In this document: positions 61,816-64,000 of the stretch, in pieces
How the letters are laid out: the number at the start of each line of letters is the position of its first letter
Numbering within the stretch: position 1 is the first letter of the stretch
Assembly: GCA_026709625.1 (NCBI GenBank)
Contig: JAPOSR010000064.1
Span: 49,005 to 113,004 of the forward strand
DNA length: 64,000 nt
From: Chloroflexota bacterium
Lineage (GTDB): Bacteria; Chloroflexota; Anaerolineae; Aggregatilineales; Phototrophicaceae
Direction of reading: 5' to 3'
Translations under genes and position numbers: made by a program
The notes under the pieces: model-generated
What the model was told of the DNA's origin: nothing
Databases searched by the model: none
Seen by the model: the letters and a program-made list of their open reading frames with translations, nothing else

Positions 61816-63912
61816 CTAGCCGCCCGCCTCGCGGATGATCAGCCGTTGCCCGGGATAAATCCAACGTCCCATGTGCTCCAGCTGGTTGGCCATGATGATT
61901 TCCAGCTGATGGGTGCGATAGGCGACGGCGATGGCGCTGATGGTATCGCCCGGTTGCACGACATGGATGATGGAGCCGTCGGGCTGTGGCGGCTTGGGCT
62001 GAACCGGCTGGGCGTAGACTGGCGCGGACGTTGGCAAGGCTCTTGCCTGGGACACATGCTCGGCGGGCTGGCGCTTGACGCAATCGCTGGCAGGAGGCTC
62101 GTCGCCAATTGTAGTTACAATGCCGAAGACCTGCCCTTCAAGGGTATTTTCCAGCACCACATGATGCGTCTTGCCCTCGAATGTAGGACCCTTGGAGAAG
62201 ACGATGTAGCGGCGCGGGATCTTCAGTTGCGCTGCGTATTTGGGGCTTAGCTCAAAGATATGGCGGATTTCTGCGGACAGCCCCGCGCGCACGGCCACGC
62301 GACCGTCGTCGCTGCAGGTGACAAAGCCTTCAGCGACCGCTTGCACCTGCGGCTGATCCACCGCTAACACGAAAGTGCCTACTGCGGGCAGATTCGCGCC
62401 CTCGCGGTTGGGGCGGATCCGCCAGACTTCGGCGGCCGGCGGCTGTCCTCCCGAGCGGCAGATGATGCCGATGGCGCCCAATTTTATGTTGCAATTTTCC
62501 TGCCCCGGGACCGGCTGCCCAGCGCCCTGCGGGTTGTACAAGTCCTCCGAATCATCGGAGCTGTCGTCGGAAGGCGGCTGATTTGGCGTCACCAGCGTCA
62601 CCGGATTGATGATCGTTGTGTCGCAATTGGGGTCGCGGTTGTCGGTCACCACACCGCCCCTGCCGGGGTAGACATATGTGTCGACCGGACTGTTGTTCTC
62701 GAAATTGATGCAGCCGTTCAGCTCGATCGTGGCACCAAAGGTCGCCAGAACGCCCAATCCACCACTATTGTTGCGAAAAGCGACATCGGTGAAGCTGGCG
62801 AAACCTGATTGGTAACTGTTCCATGTGAGCATCACCGACCGGCCACCTGCGGAAGCGGTGGCATTGTCCTCGAAAAGAGCGTTGGTGACGCGCGCTTCGC
62901 CCAGGTTAAGCAAGACGCCGCCGTTGGTAGCGGAGACTTTGACGCGTTCGGCGCTGAAAATGCCCCAGTTGTAGAAGCGAATGCCTTCCAAAGCGACATT
63001 CTCCAGCTGCAGGCGGCTAGTGGCGGCGGTGAAAAAACTGTAACCGGTTCGGCTGCTGCGGATCGATCGACCGTTGCCGATGATGCGGATGCTGACGTCT
63101 TCCGAGATATCGTAGGCGCCAGTCAAGGCGCAGTCAGCGGTCAAGGTGTAAGTCGCCGATACATCCAGATTGCCGGCCGCGGGGAAGCCGCAGGCCATCA
63201 GCGCGGGCGCCGCGATGGCGGCTTGGCTGCCATTGCCGATTGTGCCGCTGCAGGCTCCAGTACTGTTGTCAGTCCAGGTTCCGCTACCTTCATAGATGTC
63301 ATAAGGAATGTTTCCACTGAGCGTCAGGCAGCCGTTGGTGGTAAAGGTCGCGCCAGTCTGCAACAAGACCGCGCCGCCACCGCCGAAATTATTGCGAAAT
63401 ACGGCATTGGTCAGGGTATGGCTAGTGTTGGCATTGGCCTGAATGGCGCTGGCAGTTCCGCCCAAGCTGAGAGGTCGGTTTCGATTCCCCGCGAAGTACA
63501 CATTCGTCAGCGTCGCTTGATTCGCTAGGATCATCGTCCCACCGCCGTTATTGGTGAATGAGACATTGTTGGCTGTTAACGTTCCCGCTCTGATGGCGCC
63601 TCCTGCATGGCTCTTAAAGTTGCCGTTGATGGTGACATTGTTCAGATTCAGGATGGCGCGGGGTCCCGAAATAATTGATAATTCATCGCCGTCCATGCGG
63701 ATGGTATGTCCGCCGCCATTGATGGTCACAGTAAACGGCGGAATTCTGGTGGCGATGGTAAGCCTGCCAGTTTGTACGCAGTCCGCTGTTAACGTGTATG
63801 TCGCGGTCCGAATCGCCCCACTGGCCGGCAAACCGCAGGCGGGGATTGTTTGGGCCAGCGCGGGCGGGACGAGCAAAAACAAGAGCGGCAGAAACAGCCT
63901 GAAGCGCTTCAT
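61816..63912 (-). CDS. Secreted right-handed beta-helix-like protein with C-terminal LysM domain (frame is open upstream to GTG 63984 or beyond)
   Basis: Signal peptide MKRFRLFLPLLFLLVPPALAQ; VTINGGGHTIRM...LTANNVSFTNNGGGTMILANQATLTNVYF; C-terminal HVVQPGDTISAIAVAYRTHQLEIIMANQLEHMGRWIYPGQRLII LysM. Confidence 0.85.
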   Translation of the reverse strand: MKRFRLFLPLLFLLVPPALAQTIPACGLPASGAIRTATYTLTADCVQTGRLTIATRIPPFTVTINGGGHTIRMDGDELSIISGPRAILNLNNVTINGNFKSHAGGAIRAGTLTANNVSFTNNGGGTMILANQATLTNVYFAGNRNRPLSLGGTASAIQANANTSHTLTNAVFRNNFGGGGAVLLQTGATFTTNGCLTLSGNIPYDIYEGSGTWTDNSTGACSGTIGNGSQAAIAAPALMACGFPAAGNLDVSATYTLTADCALTGAYDISEDVSIRIIGNGRSIRSSRTGYSFFTAATSRLQLENVALEGIRFYNWGIFSAERVKVSATNGGVLLNLGEARVTNALFEDNATASAGGRSVMLTWNSYQSGFASFTDVAFRNNSGGLGVLATFGATIELNGCINFENNSPVDTYVYPGRGGVVTDNRDPNCDTTIINPVTLVTPNQPPSDDSSDDSEDLYNPQGAGQPVPGQENCNIKLGAIGIICRSGGQPPAAEVWRIRPNREGANLPAVGTFVLAVDQPQVQAVAEGFVTCSDDGRVAVRAGLSAEIRHIFELSPKYAAQLKIPRRYIVFSKGPTFEGKTHHVVLENTLEGQVFGIVTTIGDEPPASDCVKRQPAEHVSQARALPTSAPVYAQPVQPKPPQPDGSIIHVVQPGDTISAIAVAYRTHQLEIIMANQLEHMGRWIYPGQRLIIREAGG

Positions 63913-63950
63913 CAGCCACACAGCCAGTCCGGTCGTCGATTCAGATTTGC

Positions 63951-63969
63951 GGGGGGGGGGGGGGGGGGG
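63951..63969. repeat. Homopolymer tract G19 (C19 on the coding strand) just upstream of, or inside, the N-terminus of the LysM/beta-helix gene
   Basis: TTTGC(G)19AGGAAAAAAAAGC. Confidence 0.8.
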
Positions 63970-64000
63970 AGGAAAAAAAAGCACAAACCAACAATTTCGG

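Follow-up and report, generated by a model that had tools for sequence, protein, structure and literature searches.

What might a long run of cytosines do where a secreted-protein gene begins? In the 64,000-nucleotide stretch of DNA analysed here, which comes from an uncultured Chloroflexota bacterium (the window; positions 49005-113004 of contig 25 in a genome of 3.24 Mb and 80 contigs), a first-pass annotation had noticed a C19 tract upstream of the signal peptide of a secreted LysM/beta-helix-like protein. The tract is present on the minus strand at 63951-63969, and an open frame leads from it into the signal peptide and a LysM protein of 698 amino acids (Table 1). Such a run could switch the reading frame, tune an upstream ORF, alter promoter spacing or stem from sequencing error, and the evidence bearing on each of these readings is considered below.

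Table 1. Features of the tract gene and of the sister tract, in window coordinates.
Feature	Position	Strand	Details
Sister tract	30772..30784	-	C13; order: putative TTGACA-N17-TACAGT promoter, ATG 30800, tract, signal-peptide ORF of 167 codons
Gene from internal ATG (MKRF...)	61816..63912	-	698 aa; signal peptide, beta-helix-like region, LysM
LysM domain	61834..61965	-	aa 650-693; Pfam PF01476, 2.3e-8
Strand-rich, parallel beta-helix-like region (predicted)	62593..63846	-	aa 23-440; AlphaFold2
Putative signal peptide MKRFRLFLPLLFLLVPPALA	63853..63912	-	from hydrophobic core and ALA site
Leader from tract to internal ATG, gcaaatctgaatcg...	63913..63950	-	38 nt; common to G042, G012 and G015
Poly-C tract	63951..63969	-	C19 as assembled
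Contig tail	63970..64000	-	copy of the true flank, riddled with errors; holds the spurious GTG 63984

The gene product is predicted from its sequence to be secreted, to bear LysM and to be of the cell-wall-binding type. AlphaFold2 modelled residues 23-440 with pLDDT values mostly of 80-98, predicting with good confidence a strand-rich, beta-helix-like fold. The best Foldseek matches in the PDB were beta-helix enzymes, tailspikes and adhesins; they were weak, and none for this region had E<=0.001. With its signal peptide, LysM domain and predicted beta-helix-like region, the protein has the character of the surface or secreted products of contingency loci. Directly downstream of the tract gene (60263-61596, minus strand), the window encodes an EcoRI-like endonuclease (PF02963, 2e-12) adjoining an N6 adenine methylase (PF02384, 3e-9).

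The bases preceding the tract require care, as the window edge is a scaffold gap consisting of 10 N followed by C51; the coordinates of the first-pass annotation stopped 16 bases short of this edge. Once reverse-complemented, the sequence across the gap (ctccgaaaATGtcggatagtgctATGttctcctt, also given as ctccgaaaatgtcggatagtgctatgttctcctt) aligns ungapped to the window tail ccgaaattgttggtttgtgcttttttttcct with 24/31 identities, a match reached by none of 200,000 shuffles, and all mismatches read T in the tail. A second gapped tract, on contig C8, displayed a like pattern over 94 bases (70/94 identical), the errors being almost all G to T/A or C to A. From this we infer an overlap of the two contigs, a spurious 10-N gap and degradation of the bases read past the tract. 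The real copy of the upstream flank lies past the gap (L044:4067 onward). The tail match and the contig C8 pattern thus identify several elements of the first-pass annotation as assembly errors, namely the GTG start at 63984, the in-frame leader read as 'VLFFP', the T8 run, and the T-rich likeness to the locus at 30.8 kb. The frame is open from the tract into the gene, but an assembled C18 or C19 would be out of frame from the real upstream ATGs. This length comes from a collapsed contig end and is unreliable, as are tract lengths taken from short-read consensus near contig ends in general. Contig-end runs of C32, C43, C51, G48 and G49 were set aside as probable artefacts. Error-ridden bases, with A/T in place of G/C, were also observed upstream of tracts at L294 (genome G031) and L037 (own genome), so another assembly is affected too. 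Start-site annotation in such MAGs therefore needs caution. Short-read assemblies are broken and corrupted by tracts exactly at the starts of surface proteins, which would hide a switch.

Past the gap, the true flank contains a putative sigma70-type promoter, TTGACA-N17-TATACT (score 11 of 12, shuffle p=0.005), that ends 35 nt upstream of the tract, and two ATGs sharing one frame, located 26 and 11 nt before it. The tract, a mononucleotide repeat whose unit is not divisible by three, therefore sits between putative promoter or ATG and signal peptide, where it is expected to be transcribed at the 5' end of the gene and not to form part of the promoter. Promoter scores exceeded those of shuffles in only about a third of the tract genes. 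A change in tract length could in principle alter the spacing of the -35 and -10 elements or of an upstream regulator, as the first-pass annotation had proposed in the alternative, and some tracts in the genus are indeed intergenic. However, the best promoter here is wholly upstream of both ATGs and the tract, which makes a promoter-spacing switch very improbable at this locus.

After the tract, one frame is fused into the protein, and the other two end in ...PQI* or ...LCG*. In half of the tract/signal-peptide genes (14/28), neither ATG nor GTG occurs in the interval from the tract to the hydrophobic core, which makes a translation start ahead of the tract the likeliest; begun at the upstream ATGs of the window gene, the ORF runs through the tract past the window end. 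A further indication comes from a leader beginning VI(S), which follows the tract at 17 places; these are spread over 5 genomes, a single genome accounting for nine (the place in G007 lies inside a membrane protein, a different gene). Within the VIS leader family, differences just past the tract favour codon position 3 (558 versus 393/354), an excess that looks like a coding signature. At the DNA level, identity between some of these leaders is 74-85%, and their mature proteins are without similarity. The VIS leader accordingly looks like a translated, exchangeable 5' module, judging from the sequence comparison. Its copies after poly-C at L300-L316 (G031, G011, G013, G045) belong to secreted proteins with unrelated mature parts.

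For the leader subfamily of the window gene itself (4 loci, the G015 copy having a 1-nt deletion), the codon-position differences of 24/19/21 are without bias and uninformative for translation. In one member, G012, the fused frame is interrupted by a stop, and in all four close leaders the signal peptide is preceded by an internal ATG or GTG. Taken together, these observations make an internal start possible for the window gene, and the case for a translated tract appears weaker here than for the VIS leader genes. The protein would then be made from the internal ATG, and the tract would lie in an upstream ORF, its length tuning rather than toggling the output: depending on its frame, the upstream ORF would be fused to the gene, terminate at a TGA that overlaps the start (TGATG, an arrangement favouring re-initiation) or stop early. 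We regard such a leader switch as rather unlikely. One frame's stop does overlap the internal start in all four leaders (TGATG, TGATG, ATGA, GTGA), but a start followed by lysine (M-K) yields the ATGA overlap for free, which renders the overlap weak evidence; moreover, half of the tract/signal-peptide genes lack such an internal start, and no clear Shine-Dalgarno sequence is seen ahead of the internal ATG. The scatter of n modulo 3 was not taken by itself as proof of switching: among tract/signal-peptide genes with a nearby ATG about a third are in frame, which fits an untranslated tract too.

The tract has company within the same genome. As the first-pass annotation had stated, the window holds two long G/C runs (G13 at 30772 and G19 at 63951 on the forward strand), and it contains 14 overlapping G10 windows, where shuffles lead one to expect 0.20. 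The sister locus would be in frame when n is divisible by 3 and is off as assembled. The genome-wide scan that had been suggested returned 25 C/G runs of at least 12, compared with about 2.3 expected from composition. Runs of 9 were rejected as evidence in themselves, about 85 being expected by composition in this genome. Two paralogues in the genome carry interrupted tracts, CCCCCTCCC and CCCTCCCCCCC, which apparently have eroded. A universal fixed spacing of the form ATG-N12-A(C)n was also considered and dropped, as it occurs at four places in this genome and only five others in the genus.

We then compared related genomes, using a set of 33 related species; relatives of the protein were found in 26 of 34 genus genomes. 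At 15 family loci covering 66.6 kb, 13 C/G runs of at least 8 were found; each one lay 46-149 nt upstream of the protein match, with none elsewhere in these loci. The tract lengths were 8, 9, 9, 12, 12, 12, 13, 14, 14, 15, 19 and 22, plus a G51 artefact. Homologues thus vary from C8 to C22, as expected for a contingency locus, this variation being seen between species. Across 121 genomes sampled in the taxonomic order, C/G runs of at least 12 had a median of 10 per genome in the genus (29 genomes) versus 0 in other genera of the family (36 genomes; Mann-Whitney p=2e-10), counts that include some contig-end artefacts. Among clean tracts of at least 10 at the fetched genus loci, those at the 5' ends of signal-peptide ORFs were C on the coding strand in 33 cases and G in 0, about ten of the 33 having been fetched via the window protein's own family; another 42 tracts were inside ORFs and 47 elsewhere, and the tally left out 77 edge, N or multiple-run cases. 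The enrichment at secreted-gene 5' ends, which had been suggested as a check, was therefore borne out, and the genome-wide, genus-wide and orthologue comparisons agree in placing the window tract in a set at the 5' ends of secreted-protein genes. Loss of mismatch repair was rejected as the cause of this abundance: every genus genome searched has mutS1 and mutL, and the tracts are thus maintained despite mismatch repair.

These comparisons also bear on the notion that the run was made by poly-G calls of two-colour sequencing. The gap, the C51, the G48/G49 ends and the error-ridden tails are all located at tracts, and some related sponge data sets came from such instruments, NextSeq and NovaSeq having been used for part of the metagenomes in a study that sampled Coscinoderma matthewsi and Rhopaloeides odorabile (PMC8163846). 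However, the orthologues of many separately assembled genomes have a tract of 8-22 in the corresponding position, a methyltransferase tract lies at one codon in many species with both flanks clean, and in some genus genomes the tracts are inside contigs of 140-910 kb. Base-calling artefact is already refuted by these comparisons for the tracts as a class, and we consider it highly unlikely as the origin of the C19 run.

Tracts inside ORFs extend the pattern beyond secreted proteins. In the genome of the window they fall in DNA methyltransferase genes of four Pfam kinds (Eco57I/TaqI_C, MmeI, N6_N4_Mtase and MethyltransfD12), and in other genus genomes in D12 genes, Eco57I-like genes and membrane proteins, the last with weak PMT/PMT_2 scores under the Pfam cut-off. 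Tracts thus seem to mark genes for secreted proteins, DNA methyltransferases and glycosyltransferase-like proteins in this genus. The cleanest case appears to be the D12 (Dam-like) gene, in which a G run lies between EPFVGGGALFFAL and LSDINFDL at one site in many species. The frame could be read in 19 genomes with a run of at least 8: the gene was in frame in 7 of them and out of frame in 12, an in-frame share near one in three. Both frames are thus seen at a conserved site, a scatter between genomes of the kind that marks phasevarion repeats.

On this evidence, the C19 tract is probably a contingency locus that switches frame by strand slippage, one member of a genus-wide Chloroflexota phasome. 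Translation would start at the upstream ATG (MSDSAMFS...), and the ribosome would read (C)n as poly-Pro, followed by a short basic linker and the signal peptide. During replication, n would be altered by slipped-strand mispairing at (C)n, which is the mechanism established for loci of this type. One frame in three would yield the exported beta-helix/LysM protein, the others stopping about 3 or 12 codons past the tract, and cells of one population would differ in its display. The locus would be one of many in the genus, beside tract-bearing DNA methyltransferases and glycosyltransferase-like genes. A broader proposal, to which we give an even chance, is that a genus with sponge-associated members has a full phasome despite kept mismatch repair, passes a 5' module (start codon, poly-C, short leader and signal peptide) between unrelated secreted proteins, and possesses several phase-variable methyltransferases.

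Phase variation has been studied mostly in small-genome pathogens, and we found no report of it in Chloroflexota or sponge symbionts in the open-access literature searched. Features of SSR phase variation are given in PMC11475388. In the phasomes of Campylobacter, Neisseria and Haemophilus (PMC6321876, PMC5084427, PMC11475388), as here, tracts reside in surface-protein, glycosyltransferase and methyltransferase genes, with ON/OFF scatter of the frame and many loci per genome. Unlike those systems, the candidate phasome here belongs to Chloroflexota (Anaerolineae) MAGs and retains mismatch repair genes, and its tract and leader are common to non-homologous secreted proteins. Phasevarion methyltransferases (PMC7394358, PMC4525171) likewise are adenine methyltransferases with a coding-region repeat that is in frame in some genomes only, whereas the genes here are of D12/Dam-like, Eco57I, MmeI and N6_N4 type with G or C runs. 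For the Pmp genes of Chlamydia pneumoniae, phase variation through homopolymer tracts has been hypothesised, as PMC4514472 mentions. A sister gene in the genome of the window resembles them (contig C45, L049:1-3018): its C18 tract precedes a signal peptide, and it has Chlam_PMP repeats by Pfam (3e-20); these repeats are short and general, and homology is claimed for the repeat alone.

The nearest named relatives are the MAGs COS3, COS4, RHO1, SB0662, jk18x and others. Read from such names, the named relatives in the genus appear to be sponge-associated, and we infer that COS and RHO denote Coscinoderma matthewsi and Rhopaloeides odorabile. If the proposed switching is real, clonal symbiont populations would already be diverse in their surface proteins, in their glycans and in DNA methylation, and this would matter for host recognition, for phage pressure and for heterogeneity among strains in sponges.

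Poly-C also occurs in repeated elements of two other kinds. In the genome of the window, a dispersed repeat (L045, L052, L065) has C9-C11 between ...cgcgttgctttg and aaaaaatgagggagggg or similar. Many copies exist of an intergenic element in which TA(C)n precedes gtatacatactgtatctatac or similar (L083, L188, L190, L192-L197 and others, in G013, G009 and G016).
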